Of a stretch of 27,540 nt of DNA, positions 1-24,965 are shown one piece after another. Under the pieces are notes generated by a model. The model did no database searches and was not told the DNA's origin. It saw only the letters and a program-made list of their open reading frames with translations. The DNA comes from a virus: positions 1 through 27,540 of IMG/VR virus record IMGVR_UViG_3300028388_001893, one strand, 5' to 3'. The translations under genes and the position numbers were made by a program. Every line of letters begins with the position of its first letter. Within the stretch, counting starts at the first letter, position 1.

Positions 1-3000
1 AACATTGCCTCCACTCATATGAGTAATGGTAGTATCTAATGTCATTAGTCCTACGTCTACTCCATATAAAGTATCGTTAGTAGATAAGTAAACAGAGTCT
101 CCAGAAGAGTAGAAATCGTTTACACCAGGTTTATTAAATAAGCTGTCTAAAGCTTCTTTTACATTCTTTTGATTATTTCTATAGTATTGAATATTACGAG
201 AGTTAATGAACGGAGTTCTAATTTCCCAACCTCTTTCTCCATTAACAGACCTGGATTTCCAAACTCTTTCTAGAGTATAATTAATCTGACCTTGTAATTC
301 CAACTCATAAATATCCTCGTACCAGATTGAATCAGTGGTTATTCCATAATAATTATTGTCTGTACGGTCTTTATGAGAACCGTAAGAATGAAAGTATTCT
401 GGGTAATTGTCTGCTGGTAACTCATCTACTACAGAAACTATAGTCGGAGATATGTATATTGTAGGAGCCCCAGAGTAGTCATATTTTGTAGCATTAATGT
501 TAAAGGTTCTCGCCTTAATAGTATTATCTGGAGTCGGTATCGTTATAAAAATAGTATCAGTAATATTAGTACCGTCATTTTCGACCTGAATATTAATAAC
601 GTCGTAGTGCTGAGCCGCATAAAGGAAATTATAATATAAATTACTTCCAGACGAAGTCCTGTTTATAACTGTATCAAGAGCGCGAATTCCTAGCTCAATT
701 CCGTAATTGGCATCTTCAGTATTGACATAAGCAGAGTCTATTGTCTGAGTTACATCAATAATATGATTTTTACTAAATAAACTATCTAAAGCTTGATGAG
801 TAGTTGTTACTCCATTATCCAAGTAATCAACGAACCTAGAGTCTGCTCTCCCATCTTCTACAAACCAGTAGTAGTTATTTACTCCTTGAGCACTCCTGTA
901 AGGAGTGAAGACCACCGGCGTCCAGTAATCTTGAGGAGAGTAAGTAGTTCCTTTATAAACAGTCAAAGATTCGTTAGGCCCGTCTCCGTCGGTTTTCATG
1001 ATACTTGTACGTCCAGTAAAATCTCCGAAGCTTCACAACTCCGTAGCGCCTTCTACATCGAATACGAAAGCGTCATCTCTTCCGTTGTAGTCTCTACCGT
1101 TGTACTCAATTCTCTTCACTCTCATGTCGGGATCGTCAGGAGATAAAAGTATGTAAGTTATTTGAGAGTCTACATCTACTTCTAACATACGATGTTGAAT
1201 CCTTATCAAATCATACTGTTTACATAGAGGTCTAAGATCTATTGTTCCTCCTGTATTAGTGAAGAAAGTATCTAGTGTCATGTAGTTAACGGCACTGGCG
1301 AACATAGAATCTATCTCTATACGATGTCTCGTAAGTGAGTCAACATTTTTGTCTTGCTGTTTAAACAAAGAATCCAATGCTCCTTCTACGTTCTTTTGAT
1401 CGTTAGCGTAGTATTGTATATTCTTAGAGTACGCGAAAGGGCTAGTCATGATCCAGGCTTGCTGTCCTAATCCTGCTCCGTTTTCCCATCCTCTATTTAA
1501 GTGATAACTAGCGTACGGTTCTAGCTCCAAACTTGTTACATTTTCAAAGGTAATAGAGTCTGTTAATACACCAAAGACAGAATTATCATCTAAGTCTTCG
1601 TGTGCTCCGTAAGACACTATAAACTCGGAATTCGTATCTAAGGGCCCTACGTCTTCTATTTGTAGAATAACGCGTCCTAAGTAACCGGCACTCATATTAA
1701 AATTCCACTCCCTTGTTAACACTGTCTCATCTATAGTAGGAATTGTTAAATATACAGTATCTGTAACTGAACTCGCACTCATGCTTACCTGTACGTTTAC
1801 TTCATCATATCTTTTAGAAGCAGCGTATAAGTTATAGTATTCATTACCTGCACCAGAAGAGTACTCAATAACAGTATCCAAAGTTAGATAACCTACTGGC
1901 TCTCTCCATATAACGTCTTTTGATTCTGTAATTAAAGTGTCCCTGTCACTAGACAAGCGTACGTCTATTATATGGTTTCTTCTAAATAAAGAATCTAAGT
2001 CGATACGATGTTGTGCAGTAGTATCAAACAACTGGTTCAAACGAATGTTGTGAACGATGGTAGTATCAAATAGATCTGCTATGTCTAAGGTATTTAATGC
2101 TATAGCTGACTGCGCTACTGCTATGTCTATCTCATTAGCTATGATACGGTCTTTGTTAGTGGAGATAGAGTCTCCGTTAGCAGATATTTGAGTCCAGTGA
2201 ACAGCTAAAGAATCATATATTCTATTAATGTATTTCGTGAACCCTACTGTAGCGTCGTACGTAGAGCCGTCAAAGCTAGTAATGCGGAGGGTAGAGTCTG
2301 CTATTACTTCAAAAGTAACAATAGAATCTGCTACCTCATTAAACACGTCTTGGCTTAAGAGGTTGTTAATATCTGTTCTATGTACAGTTAAAGAGTCAAA
2401 GGCTCTCGTCAGCTCACTGAGACGTAAGGTGTCTTTAAACACGTTACCGTCATAAGTAGTTAAGGTAAGCACGCTGTCTTCTGCTGAAAAACTAGTAGTA
2501 GAGTCTGCTACTATAGCGTACACTAAAGTATATAAGCTACTAATATCTAACCCGTGCTGAGTTAAGCTGTCTTCGTGTATAACTAAGGTAGACAATATAC
2601 TATTTAAGACTCCTCGATGGTTAAATATAGAGTCTAAGTTAGCGCCTACATCTGCTCGTATGTTTGTTAAGGAATCATTCACTTCTACAATGTCTGTAGC
2701 GTTTTGCGATATGTCTCCTGTATTTGTAGCGATGTTATCGACATTGTTGTTAATCCTGGTATTGTGTGCTTGTATGCTATCTAAGTTCTCTGCTATATCT
2801 CCTGTATTAACAGCTACTGCCATCTGTAGATTCTTGATGTTAGTCTCCGCTAACTCTATGCGAGCTAAGTGAGAGGCTACAGAATCCAGTACGATGTTGA
2901 TGTATTTCGTGAAACCAACTGTTGTATTGTATATGTTACCGTCATGTGTAGCAATTCTAATAGTAGAATCTGACACTGTGATAAAACTAGTGATAGAGTC

Positions 3001-6000
3001 TCCAGGAGCAGAAGGGCCACTGTTACCTAAAATGTTAAGTATAGAATCTATATCGACTCTCTGATCAGATAAAGAGTCGTACAGTATAGGTATATCAGTC
3101 AGTCTTAATGTATCTTTATATATATTACCATCTGCGGTAGTCAGGGATAAGATGGTATCTACGCTAGATAACGTGAGTATACTGTCGTCAGGAGTAGTAG
3201 TGATATTACCTAACAGAGAGAACAGTGTATTAATATCTGTCCTATGTACGATGAGGGAATCTTCATTATTATCTGATTGAATAGTAACCAACGCTAATCC
3301 AGATTGTAGGATAGCGATGTCTGACTCGTTGATGAGTATCTGTGTATTGTTAGTTTCTATGTCTGTCTCTGCCTGATCTATTCTGTTAGCGTAACTGCTG
3401 ATAGAGTCCTGTATAGGGTAAAGTAAGGGTAAGATAGTTTTCTTAACTCGTACAGGGATAGAGAATAAGTCGTTATTCGTCTCAATTCTAACAATGGTAT
3501 CTTGGAAGATGAAAGCATCTACAATCGTATCTATAGTAGAGATAGGTATAGTTACCTGTACTACTTGATTGGTATCACTGAGAGACAAGCTCAGTATGTC
3601 TGCGGAGAAAGTAAACTGATCTACTCCCTGTTTGAGAATAGTATCTGGTTTGTTTTCTAAGACAATTAAGCGATTATTATGCGCTACTAAACTATCGTTA
3701 ATCAGACTAACGTCTCCTTCTAAAGTAGTTACCCTACCATCTAAGGAAGTAATCTGTGCCCCCAATACTACATCCCTACTAAATAAAGAATCTAAAGCCT
3801 CTTCTGTAGTAGTTTGGCTGTTGTTGGTATAAGGAACCTCACTCGCTAACTGATCGTCTGTACCAGTACTTGTAGCGATAGAATCAAATAAAGCGTTGAT
3901 ACGTTCGTTGTGAGAGATAAGAGTATCTCCTTGTTGAGTGTGCCTAGCAAAAGATAAGGCCAAAGAGTCATATATTCAGGCGTCGTCATATACACTTAAT
4001 GCGAAAGTATCTCTGAAGTCTAATCCATCTATAGTTTGTAGTCTGAACTGTACTTCTGTACCTGTCTCTGTAAAGGTTATAGAGGTAATAGAGTCAGCAT
4101 TATTAAGAGGTAATGCATTAACCACATTAATCAGGTTATTAAGATCTGACCTAATTGCGGTGGAAGTATCCCTATTAACTCCAATGCTAGTCTCAAGTAA
4201 ACCAAGTTTACTACGGTGAGCACTAATAGAGTCCAGAAGCTCCGTTTTGTTAGTTTGAATCAGAGTACTGTTATCAGTAATCAAAGATAAATGACTTGCC
4301 AGGGAATCGTAAATTCAACTATCATTATATGCTATTTGATTAAATGTATCCGTAAAAGTAAGTCCATCTACAGTGGTTATAGTCCATATACTATCTACTA
4401 TACTAAAGGTAGCTAAGCTATCTGTATTAGGAATGACAAGATCTACAGTAGTTACTATAGAAGTATCACTTAACTTACCAGATAAAGTAAGGCCATCAAA
4501 GGTTAAAGTTTCTATAAATTGAGGACGAGATACGCTATCAGTACGCTGTTCTAGGGCTAGAAGTCTATTATTGTGCGCTATAAGAGTATCTTGTATGTCT
4601 AATAAGGTGAGGTTAACGATTCCTATATCGTTACTATTGGATTGAATCATCCCGTAGTTTACAGAAATGTTAGCTTTATTAACGAGAATAGAGGAGTCGT
4701 TGGAGTTAATATCTAGCCTATGTACAGTCAAGGTATCCCAGATAGTGGTTAGATCTACGGTATCTGCTCAAGCGTTTAAGGTATCTATTTCTCTAGTTAA
4801 AGAGTCTATGTTACCAGGAGAGATAGCAGTGATCAATCCTCTGAGAGTAAGGGCTGTATCTGCTAGTGTTTGTTCTAAGGAATCAAAGTTTTGTTGAGCA
4901 ATGTTTCTTATAACAGTCATAGAATCTCCCAGTACAATACGAAGATTAGAAGTAGAATCTGCTACTTTCTGAGTAACGTAGTATAGAGTAGATACTTCTG
5001 TGGTGTCTGTTCTTACTACTAAACCATCAATAACGATTCCGTAACCAGGAGTTAACTGTTCAGGAGGGCCGTCTGTGACGCTGTTACGTCCCAGTAGTTT
5101 TCCTTTAGTAATGTCGTCTAATTTAGACAACTGAATATCAGCACCGCTAGAGATGTCTACATCTTCTATCGTGCCGTCAATGATTCGACTTCCTCCTATA
5201 TTAAGATTAAAGAGAGAGTCTAAGGCAGTTTTAACGTTGGCCTGACCATTATATAAGTATGGTACTTCAACGGCTGTCTGGTCGTCTGTATTGCCAGACT
5301 GAGCAATGTCATACTTTGTCGCGATACGGCCGGTTGTGTCTAACCTTAAAGTATCGCTATATATTCTAAAAGAGGAATCTATCGCTATTTGTTTGAGCGT
5401 ATCTCTAATACTATTAGGGTTCCCAAACAAGTGTTTCGCATCAATACTATCTAAAGTACTGAAAGGAATAGTAGTTCCTTCTCTAAAGTTAGACCCATCT
5501 ACGCTATCAATACCTGGATTATAGTTTATATTAAATAACGAATCCAGTGCTTGATCTACATTAAAGATACCTGGCACCCCCATATAGGGTACTTCAGTAG
5601 CCATTTGATCGTCTGGAATTAAGTTGTTTAAAACAAAAGCCCTAGTAGCTACTAGGGTGGTATCGACTTTTAACGAGTCATTAAACATTAAAATAGTATT
5701 ATCTAAATAGATAGTATCTGGCGGACCAGCGTTTCCAGTACCGTTACCCAACAAAGTTTGGTCTGGTATATCCTGAATTTTAGTTAAAGCAATAGCAGCA
5801 TCTTCAGCAATGTCTGCATCGCTGATAATAGTATCCTGTTCTATGAGATTGCCTAAGCTATCAATCTGATACTTATAAGCGATCTTCTCATAATGATCTC
5901 CATACGGAGCATACAAGAATACAGTATCTCCTGTCTTCTTCCAAAAGGTTAGAAGAGAAGCAGGCTCTGCTGGTTGCCTTAAAACAGGTTGCAAACTATC

Positions 6001-6477
6001 TCCTATATACTGTGAAACATCTAACTCAGACGTTAAGTAATTAGATAGTTGCAGAATGTTCTTATTCAGAATAGCTGCCCTTAGCCGTGGTGAGACACCT
6101 CCTGTAACAAAATACTGACTAGTAACAGAAGTTACTTGTGTAAGTTGTCCAAATCCTTTAGCAGGAGCGTTCGTATGTCCTACAGGATCTATCTCTATAA
6201 CAAAGGGAGATGAAGAGTTTACTGACATAATTTTAAATTCCCTCTCCAAAGCATCTATTAAGTAATAGTTGGAATCGGGAATAATATCCGTAGGGACATA
6301 TCCTCTACCGTCACGGTCAAAGAATGTCCCCAGGATCTTATATTCTCCTACACTAGGAGCAGTTAAGCCTTCTACTTCATCTCAGCGTGCTAAATAATTC
6401 ATCTCAGCTACAAACTGCGCGTTAGCAGTAATAGCCATAATGGTAAATAGCACTATATATAATATACGCTTAAACAT
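1..6477 (-). CDS. Giant modular tail-fibre/adhesin-like protein (3' end outside window)
   Basis: One reading frame runs from ATG at 6477 to the window edge (2,159 codons) once five in-frame UGA codons (6382-6384, 4768-4770, 4315-4317, 3976-3978, 1033-1035) are read as Trp; under the standard code it appears as five separate ORFs. The N-terminus (MFKRILYIVLF... then ANA|QF) looks like a Sec signal peptide with a plausible cleavage site near residue 20. Residues ~150-570 carry fibre-type modules of the form DDQ-x-A-x-EVPY followed by ALDSLF. Residues ~570-1420 are repeated beta-like modules alternating with heptad-like DSL-x-x-H-x-x-I-x-x-L stretches. Beyond residue ~1,530 there is a tandem ~200-residue repeat. 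It follows another fibre gene by 19 nt. Role (receptor binding or surface adhesion) is inferred from architecture and position. The signal peptide is odd for a virion protein; secretion by the infected cell is the alternative. Confidence 0.8.
13..1890 (-). repeat. Tandem ~200-residue repeat units in the giant fibre (at least three, a fourth entering)
   Basis: Within the giant fibre, the segment LDT recurs at about 1890 (LTLDTVIEY), 1282 (MTLDTFFTN), 683 (RALDTVINR) and 45 (MTLDTTITH), so units are about 600-640 nt long. Units 1 and 3 are clearly alike: both carry SSG-x-x-N/YYN, Y-D-x-(V/I)-N-(V/I)-Q-V, TIPT, YGAHED/YGSHKD, SPFAYSKNIQYY/TPFINSRNIQYY, QKNV and ALDSLF in the same order. Unit 2 is more diverged but keeps LDT, YD-x-I-x-I-Q, NNYY and ALDSLF. 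DNA identity looks low, so these are old duplications under protein-level constraint. The array continues beyond the window. Confidence 0.75.
2180..4440 (-). repeat. Short repeated fibre modules (DG-x-x-(F/Y)-x-DT ... DSL-x-x-H-x-x-I)
   Basis: At least six copies of a ~45-residue pattern are visible: a beta-like strand pair centred on TxDG-x-x-(F/Y)-x-(D/A/T)T, then a linker ending in YDSL or FDSL, then H-x-x-(D/R)I-x-x-L. Examples are TVDGLTFTDTF, TIDGLDFRDTF, TADGNIYKDTL, THDGNIYNTTV, TYDGNVFKDTL and SFDGSTYDATV. Two copies carry in-frame UGA immediately before IYDSLA. Such alternation of small beta modules with coiled-coil-like linkers is typical of long phage fibres. Confidence 0.7.
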
Positions 6478-8846: not shown

Positions 8847-9578
8847 TTAGTCTTGTTGTAATAGACCCTGAGCGTGAATTTGATAAGTGTTAGGGTCTGT
8901 CATTATTCGGGCTGCTAATTCTACAGCCTGATCTACAATTTGAGGATGCATGTGGTTGCTTAGTTCACAGTCTTGGGAACCTCCTGATTCTCCATTGATA
9001 TACTCGTAAGAACCCTCATACATTCTTTTAGGTTGTTTTAAATACTCAAGATAAAAATCTGAGATAGTGAGATCTGTCCTAGGATATAAGTAAAGAGAGG
9101 AACCTTGACCATCCGAAGAACGTCCAAAGTTCCCTATAATCTCTTTCTCATTAGATTGAGTAAAAGGGTCGTCCAAAGAAAAGCCTAAATCATCTGACTG
9201 AATAACAACTATTACAGCTTTTTTATAAGTACATTTTCCATCTGTTTGCGTACCGTGAGCACGTAAATAATATAAATAAGGTTGTTTTAGATTGTCTAAA
9301 TCTACCTCATAGATATGTTCATCATCGTGATACACTGGAATAATGGAAGGCTGTTCAGGATAACGCACATGTAACTGTTTCAGATCCTCTGTGCGTTTCT
9401 GAATCTGTTCATAACTAGCGCGGTAGTTATTGTTCTCGCCCAGTCTTTTCTGAATGATGATATCCTGGGCTCTGTTCAAGAGCCAGTCTACTTGTGCTAC
9501 ATTAAAGTACTGATTCACTTGGTTACCAAGCTGATTAAACTTGAAAGTGAAATCGTAGTGCATTTCCTGAATAGTCAT
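8847..9578 (-). CDS. Adaptor/ring-type head-tail connector protein (crAss-like family)
   Basis: 243 residues. The N-terminus (MTIQEMHYDFTFKFNQLG ... FNVAQVDWLLNRAQDIII) resembles a conserved crAss-like virion family in which an (I/V)DWLLN-A-Q motif follows a short helical start. The C-terminus (QIVDQAVELAARIM) is helical, and the middle is probably beta. Its ATG overlaps the stop of the upstream gene (TAATG), suggesting coupled translation. The helical ends, size and position two genes after the MCP fit a head-completion or tail-ring adaptor; that role is inferred from context and family resemblance. Confidence 0.55.
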   Translation of the reverse strand: MTIQEMHYDFTFKFNQLGNQVNQYFNVAQVDWLLNRAQDIIIQKRLGENNNYRASYEQIQKRTEDLKQLHVRYPEQPSIIPVYHDDEHIYEVDLDNLKQPYLYYLRAHGTQTDGKCTYKKAVIVVIQSDDLGFSLDDPFTQSNEKEIIGNFGRSSDGQGSSLYLYPRTDLTISDFYLEYLKQPKRMYEGSYEYINGESGGSQDCELSNHMHPQIVDQAVELAARIMTDPNTYQIHAQGLLQQD

Positions 9579-10582
9579 TAGAATATAGTTTTAGCTTTTA
9601 GTTGTTGTTTTAAGTCTTCAACGAATCCTTCTTTAGCTGGGCTTAACAAGAAATCAACTGCTTCTGGATACCGATCTCCAAGAACGATTGTCCCTTGAGG
9701 GCGATTCCAGGTATAAGTTTCTCCTTTCTCATAGATGATTCGAGTGTCTAAAGATTGCTTCAGTAAGAGTCGAGCATCAAGCTCTTTTCTTCCCAAGTCA
9801 TTCTTCGTTAACTCGTACAGTTCATTGAACTTATCTATGTTTGTGGATACTGCACTGAAATCATTTTGCGTGATATAATCATACAATAGATTATCTACAG
9901 TTTCTTCTGTCAATTCTGTCGTGCTTTTAGCTAAGTCAAGTATCCAAACAAACTGCTTTTTACGCTTATCCGTCATCTTCTTATCTTCTAAAGCAGCGAT
10001 GGCTGAGCGTATAGCTTTTGTTCTAGTATACTTAATTTCTTCACTTTCGTTTTTCAAAGCGATGTAGTGAGTAGCGTGAGGCCATTTACGGGCTTGGTAC
10101 TCTTTCTCTGAATTAGCTACGTACTTAGAGTCTATCATAACTCTGTACCCTAATTCTCCTTCCATCGAGTTTAAGTCGAAAGCAGTTGATCCGTCGTTCA
10201 ACTTTCAAATTTTAGTCTGATAATAAGTAGGCTTGTCTTCTCCTACCTTATTTGATCTACCCCAAGGACGGTTATTTAAAAAGTCTTTTCCAGTACCCCA
10301 CTTAACTTCCATCTTTTGTTGGAGCGTTAGTGCGTTACCTTGATCATCCATTTTAACTTTCCCGTTCTCTTTCCAAGGTTTATAACTGAGTCCGTTTAAG
10401 AGGCCCCCTATTCTAGGAGAGTATAAAGCAGTAATAGCATCCTTCGCATCTCCGATTTTTGTCTTATTCATACGTTTATCCGAGGATGGATTCCGCCACT
10501 CTCCTATTAGGGTAGCTGTTCTTCTTGGTATACTCTTTATAAAAACTAGATCTTTATTTGAGTTATTTGTTAATATTTCCAT
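9578..10582 (-). CDS. Conserved structural protein after the MCP, with one recoded UGA
   Basis: 334 residues when the UGA at 10205-10207 is read as Trp (context TKI-W-KLNDGS). The standard code would split it into a 125-residue piece and a 207-residue piece opening at a TTG. The junction is the same frame with no indel, so one protein is the simpler reading. The N-terminal part is basic and Trp-rich (GEWRNPSSDK, RPWGRS); the C-terminal part is largely helical and Lys/Glu-rich. No named domain is recognised. Position between MCP and the adaptor-type protein suggests a head-completion or connector role. It follows the MCP by 125 nt, with a possible RNA hairpin between them. Confidence 0.6.
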
Positions 10583-13419: not shown

Positions 13420-15798
13420 TTATAATTTTAGTATAACTGTGGCAGAGATAGCGGCTTGTCCTTTTAGTTTTAATTCTTCAACAGCCAACTTACCACGTAT
13501 TTCCATCTCTGTAATTTCTTTCTCATGATCTCTCTTAGCTTGCTCTTCCGCTTGTTGAGCTTCAATTTGTTGCTGCTGCATACGTTCTTGTTGCTCCATC
13601 ATAGCTCTCTCTTTTTCTTCTGCGGACGCTTCACTTTTCTTAATAGCGCGAGTCGCGTCAGAAACACTATCTGCGTTAAACAGTTTTATGATATCTGAGA
13701 TTTTAGATTTCTCACTGCGAATTAAAGGTTCTGCTAAAGATTGAATCTTCTGAAATACTTGATTTTCTTTAGGTAAGTTAGTTAAGAATACTGCTACATC
13801 TGCGCCTTCTAACTCATTGGCTGCGATGTTTAATGCTTCGATACTCATATCATCTAAAACGTACTGTCTCTTAACTCCTGTATCTTTCCATATATGAGCT
13901 GCTGACTTACATAAAGAGTTTAAAACTTCTTGCCAGTGTAATCCGTTTAAGTGGAAATAAGGCTCTGTAATATGTGTACTTTGCACAATATTTTGTTGGT
14001 GATTGCTTACTGCTTCGTGAGGAGAAGATTGCCCTTCTCTTTGTTTAGTAACACCTGCTACGTCACTAATTTGATTATCCAACTGATCCAGTAACATAAT
14101 GTAGTTAGAGATCTGTTGCATGTTATTTCTGTCAGTGGTAGCAGTTACTTTTCCGCGTTGAGCAGCTCCTGCTGTCTCTGCATTCATAAGCGGATTGTAA
14201 ATGTCAATATCTAAATGGTTTAAGTAGTACAAAGTTTTTTCTACTCCTATCTTAGGGTCTACCATTGTGATGTCAAAGTGAAACAGTTTACCCTTATCTT
14301 TAGCAATTAGTTCTTTGAGTTTATGCATCGCTAAAAAGTACAAGTATTGGAAAGGTTTCATACGATCCATTAAAGAAATATTAGGAGCGTTCATGTTAGA
14401 ATAAGCTACTCCGTGATATCCTAACTTTACTTTGTACGGGTTATCAATGTCTCTAAATTGTAACTCTTTAGGCTGCATACCTACGTAGATATCATCACCA
14501 ATACGAGTACCTGTTAATACTTCAGGAATCCAAGCTGCTTCTAAAGTAGAGCCGTCAAATGTGTAAACTGTCTTTTTCTTATTTCCGTCTATAGTGATAA
14601 CTTGTCTTTCTGCATAGCTGGGTATCTCAAACTCTTCTCCAAGCATATTTACCTCCTGATCTCCGTACTCATTAATACGTGTCTCAAAGTAAATCTTACG
14701 CTGGGATACTCACTCTAAATGATAAACTACCCAGTCATCTGCCAAAGAGTCTGATCTTCCATAAGAACCTTCCCAAGTAGAACGTCCTGCTTGACTTTTT
14801 GCGTGACGGTGTGCGATGTCATCATTAGGATAAACCATGTACTCTCCTACACTATTATGACGAGTACCGGAGTAACCGTGGTGATAGTCTTCTACTTTCT
14901 TTAAATCTTTCTCTCTCATCATATCTCCGTAGTTAGTGAAGATATCAGAGGTCGTCATTCTATTTCTAAAACCGGCTGCGTTACCATTCTGCACGAACTT
15001 GGTTTCCGGGCTCTTTACGTACATCATACCTAAAGGATTCTTTACTTCTACAACAGGTTCTCCTTGCCGGATACCTACTCAAGCGAACTCGTACCCGGAG
15101 ATAAGACCGTGCTTGAAAGAGTCATTCATCTTATCTTTTAGTCTCTGTGTATACTTGAAGTATTTCAGTATTTTACTGTGTGCTTTTTCTAAGTTAGAAA
15201 TAAATCCTTCTCCCACGTAATTAGATATCTTATCTGGCTGAACAAAAGTATTGATATACTCTTCCATTTGCTGCTGTAAAGCTTGTGCTTGTTGCTCATC
15301 TTGAATGTCTCCTTCCGTTTGAAATTGCTGTATTTGTTGCGCAATCATTCCTCTGATTTCCTCCATACCAGTACGTAAAAAAGATCTCATATTCTCGTCT
15401 ACTTCTGATAATTTTCTACTGATACCATCTTCGTTCATGACTGCTACAGTCCAGTCAAAAGGTCTTTTTAATTGCTCTCCCAAGATGACGTTTACTTTGT
15501 TGTAGCATTTATTGTAAGGCTTAATCTCATCCTGAAACTGGCCTACACTTAGGCCCATAGGATTACACTCTCTCTCGAAATCTTTCTGATTAAGCATGTT
15601 GTTAAATAGCTGATAGTTAGATATCATACGATCATATTCACTATCTCCCAGGTGGGTCATAGATCCGTAAGAAGGGAAAGTACCGTAGTCTAGGTAGCTG
15701 TAAAGCTGCGCATCCATAGAGTCTTTCCACCACTTATAATCATTGGCTATCTTCTTTTTTAATGAAGTTCTTTGCTTCGGATATATTTTTTGTTCCAT
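13420..15798 (-). CDS. Portal protein (crAss-like), with two recoded UGA codons
   Basis: 792 residues in one frame if UGA at 15079-15081 (context YEFA-W-VGIRQGEP) and 14710-14712 (YHLE-W-VSQRKIYF) is Trp; under the standard code it falls into three ORFs of 239, 105 and 408 residues. The N-terminal half has portal-like features: KWWKDS, ...FDWTVAV, a Gln-rich helical insertion at ~150-190, and ISGYEFA. The C-terminal ~100 residues are a Glu/Gln-rich coiled coil (EQQERMQQQQIEAQQAEEQA). In crAss-like portals a Trp after the H-x-E segment, followed by S-x-R-K, is a pattern I recall, which supports UGA as Trp. It forms the dodecameric vertex through which DNA is packaged. It directly follows TerL (2 nt between stop and start). 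There are eight UGG and two UGA Trp codons. Confidence 0.85.
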
Positions 15799-15800
15799 AA

Positions 15801-18242
15801 TTATTGTGATCCAGCTATACTAGATAAGTAAAGAGCAGCTTCTCCTACATGTTCCTCTTCTGAAACGTAATGATTTTCTTTCTCTTCCGGGATCATAGTA
15901 GGTCCCGAGTTTCTAAATAGCCTTCTGTTATTTGTTAAGAATTGTAATGATTCATCTGTTAGTTGATTTGATTGTACGTTTTCTTCGTACTTGTTAAACA
16001 TTTCGGCAAGTCCGAATACACACCCCATAAAACCCATTACTCTATCGTAGTTTCCGTGGTCTATGTCAAAAGCTAAGAGTTCCTGTAACAAGGCCCTGTC
16101 TCATATCCTATCCAAATTTCTAATCTTTACCCCTTGATCTGTGCCTCTTTCCTCTACTAACCAGTCTCTGATATATTGTAAACCATCCATCTTAATCTTA
16201 CGAGAGTTCATAGGATATCCGTAAGAGATGTTACGACCGTGATCATAAGAAGCTTTCTTAGTAAAAATAGTGGTAGGAGTTTTAGCTAATAAGTGTAGTT
16301 TCTTATGCTTCTCAAAATACTCTTTTACGTTACCCACTGCGTTCTCAAAAAATATTTTAGCGTTGCCATATAACATACTCAGTTTCATCAATATCTCATT
16401 GGTCTTTTCTCTTCCTATAAAGGGTCTACCTACAAACTGAGCAACAATCTCGTTGTGCCCGTGTTTCTGCCAGTGGTTAGAAGTTTTCAGTACGTAGATA
16501 CTCGCTAAAGAACTACCGTCTGGGTCGTCTGTACGTACAGGGTCATGTCCTATAATATATAAGTCTTTAGGCACTCTGCCTACCTCATCAAAAATGGGTT
16601 CTTCATACATTACGACCGTCCCTTCTCTGTCCGCTCTTTCATCCCAAGGAAACTGATTAATAGGAGGGTGTTTCCTAGATACGTCTACTCTAAAACCGAC
16701 TCCATATTTCTCGTGTCTATCTCAGTATAGTTCGACAGGTTTCTCTAAAGAGAGGTATAAGTTATCTCTTTCTAAAGTATTTAATCTGTTCTTGATCTCA
16801 GCAATGGGGAAAATGTTACCTGTTTTGGCTAAGAACATTTCTGAAGGAACTAAAGGACGGTTTTGAATTTCAGAGTCTAAAGCTTTAGAAGTACCTCCTG
16901 AACTCTGTAATTTAAACCTTTTACCTTCTAACTCTTTTCTTGCTGCTTCTGTGTCTGTGTTCCCCATCGGGTCTTTAAAGTCATTAAGTCCCATATAGGC
17001 AGGAACAAAGTAGCAGACTTTTCCAGTGGCCCCTTTTCCTTCTCACTCATCCACAAATGTGATGCAGTCGTACTTGTCAGGGTTATAGAAGATATCGTAA
17101 GCGTCCCTAGTACCTCCCCCTTGAAAGTCACCTCCGGTTCCCAAAAAGATTGCTGATCCGAATTTTCATGCACCATCTCTCATACATTCTACAGAAGCGT
17201 TATAAGAATCAATTAAATTGTCAAACATACCACATTCCTCAAATACGATAACCCCTGGTCGCGTACCGTTAGCAGCGAAGGGGTTGTCTTTAAATGTCCT
17301 GTGTTTAATATTTGACTTCGTTCCTTTTCATTCCCAGTTACCTCCTTCTACTCTTTTCTTATAACGAGCTGTTACTTGTTTGGCGGGTTGCCAGGAGCCT
17401 GTGTAGTTTTTAAAGAAAGGAGCAGGGTAAACTTTGGTGGGAGAGCTGTAACCTCCAGGCAGTCTTTCTAAGGATAGACGACTTTTTTCCAGAAGGTCAG
17501 CAGAGTATTTAGCGTCTCCTGCTCCTACTACAATTTCAGAAGAGGTCTTGAATTTCTTAGGATTGTTGCTGTCATATTTTACGGCTCCGTCAAATAGCCA
17601 CTCATGAAGAACTACATGCCCTACAGAATATGATTTACCAAAACCACGGCTACCGAGCATCATAAAATTTTTAGCTTGATTATAGTACAGAGGATCACCT
17701 AAATTAGATTCGTGCTGTCTCTGCATATATTCTTGCGCTTCTACATATATTTTTTTCTCTCTTTTTTTGTCGCTTCCTAAAGGGATAAAAGGTCCTTTGA
17801 AAATGTTAAAATAAGCTTCTTTTAAAACTTCTCCTTTCTCCATACAGTAGAATCGAATAATCTCCTCATCTGTTAAAGGATCTGTTATATCGTATGGGTC
17901 TTTAGGCTTAGCAGCTCTATGACAAGTATAAGTATCGTCTTCCTTAAACCCAGAAAATCCTCTACACTCTGCTCAGTTGTAGAAGAATTGTCAGTCCAGG
18001 TCTCTTAGCCAGGGGCGGCCGAATTGTTTTACTCCTCTTTGTCCTCCTTTGTTCAGTTTAATAGTACCAAAATTTACATAGAAATAGAGTTTACCTGGCA
18101 TTCATACACCACTTTGTCAGTAGCCTAAAATACATCTTTCTTTTTGAGTTCTTCAGTACTCTCGGAATAGAGGGCTCTTAGGGTGCAATCTCGGTATCTC
18201 TTCCTCTAAAAATAAATTAGGATTTACTTTTACTTCGTACAT
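15801..18242 (-). CDS. terL: Terminase large subunit, with ten recoded UGA codons
   Basis: 813 residues, ATG at 18242, TAA stop. Ten in-frame UGA codons at residues 30, 42, 47, 84, 90, 305, 359, 400, 507 and 714 split it into pieces under the standard code, with no frame change anywhere. With Trp the N-terminus reads REYWRTQKERCILGYWQSG, VWMPGKLYFYVNF and RDLDWQFFYNW, matching the crAss-like terminase pattern as I know it. Walker A is GSRGFGKS (residues 197-204) and Walker B VIVFEE (331-336). Nuclease acidic residues fit HDP (D567), FFEN (E633) and NYDR (D733). It cuts and pumps phage DNA into the head through the portal encoded next. It starts 74 nt after the GroEL stop, beyond a terminator. 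It uses ten UGA and seven UGG codons for Trp, by far the highest UGA share here. Confidence 0.92.
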
Positions 18243-22606: not shown

Positions 22607-22632
22607 AAAAATTAATAGTATGAAAAAACTAG

Positions 22633-22725
22633 CACGGGCATCAGGACTCGAACCCGAATAAGCGAGTTTGGACCCCGCCATGCGGTTTTGAAGACCGCTC
22701 CCCTTCCTAAGGGATAAGTGCCCGT
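22633..22725 (-). tRNA. tRNA with UCA anticodon (UGA decoder), long variable arm
   Basis: 93-nt fold: 7-bp acceptor ACGGGCA/TGCCCGT, discriminator G73, anticodon stem GCGGT/ACCGC with loop CT-TCA-AA, and T arm TCGGG-TTCGAGT-CCTGA. The anticodon UCA reads UGA and, by wobble, UGG. The variable region is 24 nt with a 5-bp stem (GCGGG/CTCGC), a class II feature of tRNA-Ser/Leu/Sec rather than tRNA-Trp. The D arm is unusual: four unpaired bases, then up to 6 bp (TCCCTT/AGGGGA) around a 4-nt AGGA loop, resembling tRNA-Sec. The acceptor plus T stems total 12 bp, not the 13 of bacterial tRNA-Sec. CCA is not encoded. It is the natural candidate for decoding UGA as an amino acid in this genome. Its charging identity (Trp, Ser or Sec) is unsettled by sequence alone. 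Confidence 0.87.
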
Positions 22726-22753
22726 TTCTTATATATCTATTCCATACGACATA

Positions 22754-22957: not shown

Positions 22958-23142
22958 TATTGTTTATTATTACAGTGGACACAATAGTTAGAAGTGACTG
23001 CTATTTTCTTATGACAGTACCAACATTCTTTAAAGGCCAAGGAACCATGGGGGCGGAGTACAGTCATTCTTTGGGGGACAGGAAGGCTTAAATAATCCGC
23101 AGGTACAATTGTCCCTCTTCTTTTTCTTTTCTGTGTTATCAT
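22957..23142 (-). CDS. Zinc-ribbon fragment, possibly the frameshifted C-terminus of the HNH protein
   Basis: A 61-residue frame from ATG at 23142 ends in a clear zinc ribbon (CWYCHKKI ... YCVHCNNKQ). Phage HNH endonucleases often carry such a ribbon after the nuclease core. This frame is shifted +1 relative to the HNH frame at 23030-23377, which it overlaps. It may be an independent small protein started at the overlapping ATG, or the true end of the HNH protein after a frameshift near 23140-23150. Its frame is more protein-like than the overlapping HNH tail. Confidence 0.45.
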   Translation of the reverse strand: MITQKRKRRGTIVPADYLSLPVPQRMTVLRPHGSLAFKECWYCHKKIAVTSNYCVHCNNKQ

Positions 23143-23377
23143 ATCTTCCTCTGTTTTTTCCTCCCCAAGTATCCGTTTGTGTGTGACAGTTAGGGCATAC
23201 AAATCTTAAATTATCTATGTGTGTGTTATTTTTATTTCCGTCTATGTGATCAAGTTGTAAAGTTAAGTCTTCCCCTTCTCACTCAGGCAGAAGCCCACAA
23301 AGGTCACAGACATATTCTACTCCGTACTCAATCATTTTTTTCTTAATGGTAGAGTTGCTCTTATACTCAAAAACCAT
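23030..23377 (-). CDS. HNH endonuclease (homing type), one recoded UGA, suspicious C-terminus
   Basis: 115 residues in frame from ATG at 23377 (TAG lies five codons upstream). The core is a good HNH: C-x-x-C (CDLC), P-E-W-EG, LTLQLDHIDGN, then DNLRFVCPNCHTQT and GGKNRG. The Trp is encoded by UGA at 23279-23281; in this family that position before G-x-x-L-x-L-x-LDH is usually Trp, supporting UGA as Trp. After KNRG the frame becomes Pro/Cys-rich and atypical (CTCGLFKPPCPPKN), while a zinc ribbon appears in the +1 frame. Such enzymes cut DNA and promote their own spread; they are common free-standing passengers in phages. Confidence 0.75.
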
Positions 23378-23429: not shown

Positions 23430-23942
23430 TTAGATAATGTCTTCTTCCGCAGCACTTTCAATTAAGTTTCCTGAAGTTTGTTCAGCTCTTTCCTGATCCA
23501 GGTCTTTAAGTGCTTGCATATAGTAGTCCCATAGTTTTTTATTGTTACTCATCATCTTGTCTAACATTTCGTAGGTAGATTCGTTGTATACTTTTTCCCT
23601 CACAAACCTATCTCTTTCCATTAACTTATCTTCCCATCCTTTAGCTATTTTTTCCTTAGGCGTTAGACATTTTTCTTTGAACTTATTTTCTATTTCTTCA
23701 TACTTACTACGGTCTCATTTTATAGTCAGAAAGTTAGATCTTTTTAAGTCTGTTACTAACTCTTGTTCTGACATATCTTTCATCTCACTATCAGGGTGAT
23801 TTAAAAAGTAAATTATCTTCATTACCTGATCTGAGTTTGTTTTGTTCCTTGATTTGTCATTCTTATAAAAAGAAGGGAACCGTACTTTGAGTATAGGGTT
23901 ATCTTCTCAAATGGAACTATTTAAATCTACTTTAAGCTTCAT
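23430..23942 (-). CDS. Conserved crAss-like hypothetical protein, two recoded UGA codons
   Basis: 170 residues from ATG at 23942 to TAA at 23430. Two in-frame UGA codons are read as Trp, in contexts NSSI-W-EDNP and TIK-W-DRSK; under the standard code only the C-terminal 63 residues would be seen. The body is helical and highly charged, with Lys/Glu-rich segments and an acidic end (ESAAEEDII). The N-terminal pattern (MKLKVDLNSS-I-W) resembles a hypothetical family I associate with crAss-like phages. It overlaps the upstream membrane gene by 11 nt. A small-terminase or virion-assembly role is possible but unproven. Confidence 0.65.
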
Positions 23943-24094: not shown

Positions 24095-24616
24095 TTAATA
24101 AAGCCATATAACAGGGTGTGCTTTAGTTGTGTCCACATCTAGATGAATGAAGCGTTTGTGAATACCAATTCTGGGTATCTCTAACTCTATTGCTTTTTTG
24201 ATGATAGCATATCTCGCCTTCGTTTCGAGAACTCTGATATCAACCGCATCTCCTGTTTTGTGGGCTGAATTATGTACACCTCCCGCTCTAACGTTTCTAG
24301 CATACGTTCTATATGCTGAGTTCACTTTAAGTTCTTCATCTATGTAGACATTTAATAAAGCTAACTTGTGTAATAATGTTGAATCCATTAGTTTGTTTGT
24401 TCCTTTCTTATCAGGTGAGTCAAAGTCATCTTCCGTATAGTATATGAACGGGTCAATTTCACTCTGAAATTTAATCGTGTTGATCTGGTAAGTCAAGCTG
24501 TCTATCTTCTTTTTCTGCGAGGAAATTATCCCACTTTGGATCTTCGTTACTTCAGAGTGAAGGGATATCGAATTCTCGTAACTTGTTCTCCCTGAGTAAA
24601 CTCCATAGCTTATCAT
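24095..24616 (-). CDS. Endolysin, M15-family peptidase (M15_3-like)
   Basis: 173 residues from ATG at 24616. The C-terminal ~100 residues hold the family motifs: SAYRTYARN, SAHKTGDAVDI (zinc ligands His119 and Asp126 in this numbering) and RFIHLDVD (His158), ending VIWLY. M15 peptidases of this type cleave D-Ala- or L-Ala-D-Glu-containing peptide bonds in peptidoglycan. The open frame extends upstream to 24868 with a hydrophobic segment (KLLLILGMISYGVYSG), so a start a few codons earlier at TTG would give a signal anchor. The longest version would overlap the Cys-rich gene almost wholly. Even from 24616 it overlaps that gene by 146 nt. The 50-residue membrane protein follows at once, forming a probable lysis pair. 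Confidence 0.85.
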   Translation of the reverse strand: MISYGVYSGRTSYENSISLHSEVTKIQSGIISSQKKKIDSLTYQINTIKFQSEIDPFIYYTEDDFDSPDKKGTNKLMDSTLLHKLALLNVYIDEELKVNSAYRTYARNVRAGGVHNSAHKTGDAVDIRVLETKARYAIIKKAIELEIPRIGIHKRFIHLDVDTTKAHPVIWLY

Positions 24617-24965
24617 CCCTAATATCAATAATAATTTCCATCTTGATAAGGGTTGATATCCACATAGCCAAAGGAGCCCAGTACGCAGACTGTTCTTTAT
24701 ACTTTTCCCAATCTTCCTCACTAAGTTTTGTAGGCCACTTACTAATAGGGTCCACCTTATTAGGTGCGAACATGACGTGAGGAGTATGGCAACCGCAGTG
24801 CAAGCACTTACCATTAATGGTACAAGGTCTGCAAACGAAAGCTCTATATAGGTACTGTTCATAAACATAATCAGGCAACTGTTTTCTATTAGCGAAGTTA
24901 ATCATCCCTTGAGTGAAGTTAGAGATGTTTTTTAGCGTAATATCTTTGGCTTGTATCTTAGTCAT
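24471..24965 (-). CDS. Cys-rich zinc-binding protein, one recoded UGA
   Basis: 164 residues from ATG at 24965; UGA at 24552-24554 is read as Trp (IPSL-W-SNEDPKWDNF), extending the protein to TAA at 24471. A zinc-knuckle-like cluster lies at residues ~50-62 (VCRPC ... KCLHCGCHTPH), followed by MFAPNKVDPISKWP. A Cys-rich module followed by a Trp/Pro segment recurs in hypothetical proteins of crAss-like phages. Six other Trp codons are UGG. It is the first gene after the terminator at 24986-25020. Its 3' part overlaps the endolysin start in another frame. Function unknown. Confidence 0.7.

Follow-up and report, generated by a model that had tools for sequence, protein, structure and literature searches.

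Recoded phages, crAss-like and others, carry stop codon suppressor tRNAs (Yutin et al. 2021, PMC7886860; Peters et al. 2022, PMC9523058), and those recoded phages in which no suppressor tRNA is recognised are a stated puzzle (PMC7886860, PMC12386605). In these descriptions the suppressors count as ordinary tRNAs of four arms in which the anticodon is changed. Bacterial Trp identity consists of G73, A1-U72 and C34C35A36, bacterial Gln identity of G73, U1-A72 and a UUG or CUG anticodon (review, PMC9976931). When its anticodon is changed to amber, tRNA-Trp receives Gln instead (PMC9976931). Since bacterial TrpRS needs C34C35A36, a changed anticodon threatens charging.

Three further groups of tRNAs with long extra arms have to be considered, namely selenocysteine tRNAs (SelC), class II tRNAs (Ser, Leu) and the allo-tRNAs. 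The latter were reportedly described by Mukai and colleagues in 2017 from metagenomes and phages as tRNAs with odd UCA or CUA anticodons, long extra arms and 8/4 or 9/3 branches. Allo-tRNAs differ in the acceptor/T branch from the tRNA described here, which has a canonical 7/5 branch and is set apart by a second anticodon arm.

The window, i.e. the whole stretch of DNA analysed, comprises 27,540 bases of a virus record and is a fragment, to which our searches of the window are confined. It contains a single tRNA (22632-22726, minus strand) with the anticodon UCA, labelled SeC by ARAGORN. RNAfold of the respective strand predicts a cloverleaf to which a fifth arm is added, namely an extra hairpin whose loop has 7 nt. 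The parts are as follows (basis in brackets).

22633-22725, minus strand: dual-anticodon-arm opal suppressor tRNA-Trp, A1 at 22725 and G73 at 22633 (ARAGORN, fold, comparative set)
22719-22725, minus strand: 5' strand of the acceptor stem, ACGGGCA, with A1-U72 (sequence, fold, comparative set)
22699-22718, minus strand: region of nt 8-26 including the D arm, 6-bp stem and 4-nt loop AGGA (sequence, fold)
22682-22698, minus strand: arm 1, GCGGU-[CUUCAAA]-ACCGC, anticodon UCA at 22689-22691, reads UGA (ARAGORN, fold)
22662-22678, minus strand: arm 2, GCGGG-[GUCCAAA]-CUCGC, Trp anticodon CCA at 22669-22671 (fold, comparative set)
22658-22661, minus strand: 4-nt linker UUAU from arm 2 to the T stem, the length of a class I variable loop (comparative set)
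22641-22657, minus strand: T arm, UCGGG-[UUCGAGU]-CCUGA, 5 bp (sequence, fold)
22633-22640, minus strand: 3' strand of the acceptor stem, UGCCCGU, and discriminator G73 (sequence, fold, comparative set)

The fold has an energy of -39.6 kcal/mol (z = -3.1), and none of 200 shuffled sequences folds equally well. The D arm is UCCCUU-AGGA-AGGGGA and a CCA end is not encoded. With five arms and a variable region of 24 nt the molecule does not adopt the class I four-arm fold with a short variable loop. The acceptor end carries the bacterial Trp identity elements G73 and A1-U72, while pair 2-71 is C-G and not G-C. The extra hairpin is itself an anticodon arm, the second of the molecule, and has the Trp anticodon CCA. 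The initial annotation had pointed to a UGA-reading tRNA of unusual shape at 22633-22725, which ARAGORN and RNAfold bear out; likewise its 6-bp D stem with 4-nt loop, G73, 7+5 branch and 24-nt variable region are all found in sequence and fold, and the anticodon arm given as GCGGT-CTTCAAA-ACCGC folds as GCGGU-CUUCAAA-ACCGC. Its option of a class II-shaped tRNA charged by TrpRS holds in part. Charging by TrpRS is probable, whereas the label of a class II variable arm has to be dropped in favour of a second anticodon arm with CCA.

The tRNA shares with SelC (RF01852) the anticodon UCA, an identical loop CUUCAAA, a long extra arm and the 6-bp D stem with a 4-nt loop. Unlike SelC it shows a 7+5 instead of an 8+5 branch and a 7-nt CCA loop in the extra arm, and UGA is Trp across the virion genes. 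In a family search the Rfam tRNA-Sec model (RF01852) scores 44.2 bits (E = 5.6e-8), which is below its gathering threshold of 47. With class II tRNAs (Ser, Leu) the molecule has in common an extra arm between anticodon and T arms, and G73 as in tRNA-Ser. In contrast to class II Ser and Leu tRNAs, the extra arm of dual-arm tRNAs is conserved as an anticodon loop, and A1-U72 with G73 is Trp identity.

The terminase, portal protein, GroEL and major head protein of the window match PHROG families. By terminase the nearest named relative is Cellulophaga phage phi14:2 (Crassvirales, Steigviridae; 34% identity), and a terminase-based search for related loci among viral contigs gave no match. In-frame UGA codons are found in the following reading frames.

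15801-18242, minus strand: terminase large subunit (TerL), 10 in-frame UGA (PHROG 6681, E = 4e-104; UGG/UGA interchange)
13420-15798, minus strand: portal protein, 2 in-frame UGA (PHROG 6547)
1-6477, minus strand: long tail/fibre-like ORF, 5 in-frame UGA (ORF, UGA count)
9578-10582, minus strand: conserved virion-region protein, 1 in-frame UGA (profile search, relatives, UGA count)
23430-23942, minus strand: ORF with 2 in-frame UGA (ORF, UGA count)
23030-23377, minus strand: HNH endonuclease ORF, 1 in-frame UGA (profile search, UGA count)

Four syntenic relatives (L024, L026, L033, L090) with TerL identities of 44-58% each have a dual-arm tRNA near groEL and terminase. Their arm-2 stem sequences differ while the CCA loop is identical. 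Opposite the UGA codons of the window these relatives show UGG 20 times and UGA 7 times, followed by Tyr (7), Phe (4) and others (9), with Ser at none of the 47 positions. The window TerL itself has 7 UGG codons beside its 10 UGA. In four standard-code relatives Trp is opposite UGA in 13 of 37 homolog comparisons (p about 5e-15). Over the dual-arm loci among the matches listed, Trp is the top residue at UGA sites (83/276). Hence UGA is Trp in the gut-type phage of the window, as the initial annotation had favoured from the proteins, and the insertion of Ser that it had also considered finds no counterpart in the 47 aligned positions.

Two other features of the gene region may be recorded. The phage GroEL (18317-19936, minus strand, 539 aa) lies between tRNA and terminase and contains no UGA codon; groEL is also present in relatives with dual-arm tRNAs. 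At 24095-24868 and 24471-24965 (minus strand) two long ORFs overlap, one of which matches an endolysin/peptidase family while the other has one UGA.

A CCA loop in one sequence could be a matter of chance. The second CCA loop first became apparent with an exact anticodon-arm pattern that gave 12 loci, including several chance matches. Two unrelated phage tRNAs (L009, L004) also have it, and the extra arm of L009, CCGGT-CTCCAAA-ACCGG, equals what we take to be the anticodon arm of E. coli tRNA-Trp. The main opal scan combined a UCA loop, TCCA and a T loop, whereby the second anticodon as well as U33 of arm 2 were required; it found at least 80 viral contigs with about 60 clear tRNAs among the matches listed. 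Because this pattern demanded TCCA, a second scan was run without it. This unselective scan is smaller than the selective one (at least 120 matches, 80 loci listed). Among the matches listed, the tRNAs passing its structure filter are the dual-arm type, genuine SelC with an 8-bp acceptor and no CCA loop, and a few others, the long-V UCA tRNAs not fitting the dual-arm type being L017, L093, L166 and L173. SelC thus forms a mostly separate group among long-V UCA tRNAs, and the tRNA of the window lacks the 8-bp acceptor of bacterial SelC, which speaks against the Sec option of the initial annotation. L017 (427-479) is a Ser-like long-V tRNA with UCA, A1-U72 and G73 and no clear CCA hairpin; it may be a different UGA suppressor.

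After removal of SelC, the dual-arm UCA+CCA tRNAs make up at least 34 divergent clusters, set at less than 85% similarity and not fully independent of each other. Among the matches listed, 87% of the arm-2 stem positions in the 34 clusters are paired versus 47 ± 3.6% with the 3' strands shuffled among sequences (z = 11). The stems of arm 2 covary across these 34 clusters among the matches listed while the CCA loop stays. When the V region is folded separately with RNAfold, CCA lies inside a hairpin loop in 33/34 clusters among the matches listed, as against 24% expected. Likewise among the matches listed, A37 of arm 2 is kept in 33/34 clusters, and an arm like arm 2 is present in 30/34, compared to 0.26% in shuffled V regions. 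U72 is found in 34/34 clusters among the matches listed, a count that, like that of G73, is partly selected since the filter barred C72 and required G73; one dual-arm tRNA, L027, has G1-C72. Recurrence over 34 divergent clusters argues that the CCA loop is not due to chance.

The scaffolds differ. Class I D arms are found as well as Sec-like 6-bp D arms (as in the window) and Ser-like D arms (L015, L023, L067, L079), the latter in L015 and L023 resembling class II Ser. The Ser-like D arms suggest repeated origins of the second Trp arm on different scaffolds. The order of arms is fixed: a pattern search for the reverse (CCA in arm 1, UCA in arm 2) gave 0 matches. In the GTDB genomes (257 Gb) 46 pattern matches were obtained, nearly all bacterial SelC and three true dual-arm tRNAs. 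One of the three (L208 / L083), a UCA+CCA tRNA, lies in Bacteroides neonati MS4, a cultured isolate, on a scaffold of 1.48 Mb and is identical to an IMG/VR contig. Two genuine SelC of Planctomycetes (L227, L228) have in their extra arm a 5-bp stem closed by the 7-nt loop GTCCACC; as TCCA was part of the pattern, this is probably a chance match. Suppressors with only one anticodon arm, UCA or CUA, occur in phages too (L006, L013 and two in phAss-1), so the second arm is not always needed. Within the window, a 27.5-kb fragment of the record, no canonical second tRNA-Trp(UCA) was found.

A parallel architecture exists for UAG, with CUA in arm 1 and a Gln anticodon YUG (CUG or UUG) in arm 2 (e.g. 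L371, L385, L430, L443). The first amber scan demanded the second anticodon, and a loose TYTGA version matched many ordinary tRNAs and was replaced. The unselective amber scan (long-V CUA, arm 2 not required) is complete. It yields 62 well-formed long-V CUA tRNAs, 41 of which have YUG followed by R37 in a 7-nt loop; with L479 and L496, where base 37 is another, YUG is found in 43/62. A YUG arm arises by chance in 3.6% of shuffled regions. The other long-V CUA tRNAs mostly resemble class II Leu, Ser or Tyr suppressors. In the amber Gln class pair 1-72 is U-A or weak, G-C being rare (3/45), and G2-C71 is present in 36/45. Judged by sequence, this is what GlnRS identity requires. Many arms 2 of the Gln type comprise only 2-3 Watson-Crick pairs, and U33 is absent in 7/45. 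UAG sites in the amber dual-arm loci align mostly with Gln (155/460), then with Lys and Glu. Amber dual-arm tRNAs are also present in the published phages phAss-1 (OQ749652, 62445-62532, annotated as Sup-CTA) and cr113_1 (NC_055896, 94123-94213, annotated as tRNA-Gln).

One phage combines the two classes. The tRNA at L507:10262-10354 (record G051) of phage L506, whose record has 146,105 bases, carries CUA in arm 1 and CCA in arm 2 (GAGGT-GTCCAAA-GCCTC). It adjoins an ordinary tRNA-Trp(CCA) whose acceptor and T arm are similar to its own, and no further CUA tRNA was found in the L506 record. The virion genes are rich in UAG, e.g. 30 within one frame of 1822 codons. The Terminase_6N profile had no match in the L506 record, the terminase being found via PHROGs. 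Aligned with homologs from Enterococcus, Bacillus, Lactococcus and gut phages, 64 UAG sites correspond to Trp in 18, Tyr in 11 and Gln in 2 cases, and the close relative MT836163 has Trp at about 15 of the UAG sites of L506. The relative phAss-1 was published as UAG = Gln (PMC10607447). UAG aligned with Trp in L506 and with Gln in phAss-1 suggests that the amino acid follows arm 2 and not the codon. Based on this one phage genome, L506 apparently uses an undescribed code in which UAG is Trp. We know of no description of such a code, and a search of the open-access literature, whose coverage is incomplete, found none. The same phage has a tmRNA gene (L507:18416-18760) with the tag peptide AKKIVSFPTKVALAA.

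On its 5' side arm 1 is attached to the D arm like any normal anticodon arm. Between arm 2 and the T stem lies a linker of 3-5 nt, similar to a class I variable loop; among the matches listed it is 4 nt long in 24/34 clusters, and in the Gln class arm 2 is connected to the T stem as 5+4 nt in 39/45. The linker between the arms varies while the distance from arm 2 to the T stem is near-constant. In blastn searches the 3' half of the dual-arm tRNA matches ordinary tRNA-Trp, and dual-arm tRNAs compared with named phages mostly matched halves of ordinary tRNA-Trp or tRNA-Gln. The arm geometry together with the match of the 3' half is in keeping with a tandem duplication that comprised the anticodon arm and the variable loop. 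Dual-arm tRNAs probably arose when this happened in a tRNA-Trp and C34 of the first copy became U.

These tRNAs resemble the suppressors of recoded phages in being phage-encoded and reading UGA as Trp or UAG as Gln, mostly in late genes, with no own synthetase found. They differ in adding an arm with the anticodon of the original amino acid. We propose that arm 1, at the normal position after the D arm, would alone read UGA on the ribosome, while host TrpRS would charge Trp by contacting CCA of arm 2 and the acceptor end with A1-U72 and G73. UGA-filled late phage genes would then be translated with Trp. In the amber class arm 1 would likewise serve the ribosome, with GlnRS binding to the acceptor end and arm 2. 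Access of the synthetase to arm 2 could be provided by two alternating arm stackings. Support for decoding by arm 1 comes from its match with the codon, and from Gln-type second arms whose shortness would prevent them from functioning on the ribosome. No TrpRS was found among 50 phage records of the dual-arm or UCA kind, many of them fragments, which makes a host enzyme likely. Given the structure, recurrence, covariation and fixed order of the arms, UGA = Trp, the UAG/Gln class and the UAG/Trp case, all obtained by computation, we assign a probability of about 0.77 to the reading that arm 1 decodes the stop codon and arm 2 supplies the anticodon needed by host TrpRS for charging.

Existing single-arm UCA tRNAs of other phages and the conserved acceptor identity elements would also suit an arm 2 that is an inherited duplicate of the tRNA-Trp arm and stabilises the fold or attracts modification enzymes, charging proceeding via the acceptor end (A1-U72, G73) and arm 1. 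This is improbable, considering that the CCA-A37 loop persists in spite of changes in both stem strands across 34 clusters among the matches listed, that the amber class keeps YUG-A37 even on a stem of 2-3 bp and that the UAG = Trp phage follows its own arm 2. If both arms decoded, arm 1 would read UGA and arm 2 UGG. The two canonical 7-nt loops of the Trp class, both with U33, agree with this, U33 being however required by the search pattern. Wobble already allows UGG to be read by a UCA anticodon, L506 has an ordinary tRNA-Trp(CCA) as well, and Gln-type arms 2 often have only 2-3 pairs and sometimes no U33 (7/45), so we regard decoding by both arms as quite improbable. A further notion, by which RNA processing cuts off one arm once the tRNA is charged or before it is used and leaves an ordinary tRNA, draws on the fact that phages can encode RNA repair enzymes. 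No processing signal is seen in the sequence, however, and a second anticodon matching the amino acid in two classes would not be needed, which renders it very improbable.

The long extra arm and the tRNA-Sec score of 44.2 bits are what a class II Ser/Sec-type tRNA inserting Ser or Sec at UGA would lead one to expect. Some mis-serylation is possible, given the preference of SerRS for long variable arms and G73. A tRNA of the Ser/Sec type is exceedingly improbable: the syntenic relatives have Ser at 0/47 and Trp at 27 of the window UGA sites, TerL and portal alone contain 12 UGA codons, the acceptor has 7 bp with the score under the Rfam threshold, and dual-arm tRNAs and genuine SelC are separable. 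We consider this reading already contradicted by the alignments at UGA sites. Anticodon nucleases cut anticodon loops, and arm 2 might accordingly serve as a decoy for those of the host, or as a regulator. Such a role does not predict a link of arm 2 to the amino acid used at the stop codon and appears equally far-fetched.

Since the arms combine freely (UCA+CCA, CUA+YUG, CUA+CCA), phages can seemingly let a stop codon stand for whichever amino acid arm 2 specifies. Taken together our data make it likely that a widespread class of five-armed tRNAs parts codon reading (arm 1) from identity (arm 2), with arms that combine freely, and gave rise to the UAG = Trp code. A search of the open-access literature, with many journals and preprints lying outside its coverage, found no published description of a tRNA with two or duplicated anticodon arms.

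In ordinary tRNAs that are recognised by their anticodon, a change of the codon read also damages charging, and a second arm bearing the identity would escape this conflict. If true, this explains how phages reassign UGA and UAG without a synthetase of their own. Dual-arm tRNAs, which ARAGORN labels SeC or Pyl, may account for some of the recoded phages seemingly without a suppressor. The dual-arm tRNA moreover offers a design for genetic code engineering, and the UAG = Trp phage is a natural test of the amino acid following the second arm. As suggested by many unrelated phages, which codon is read and which amino acid is inserted can sit in separate arms of one tRNA.
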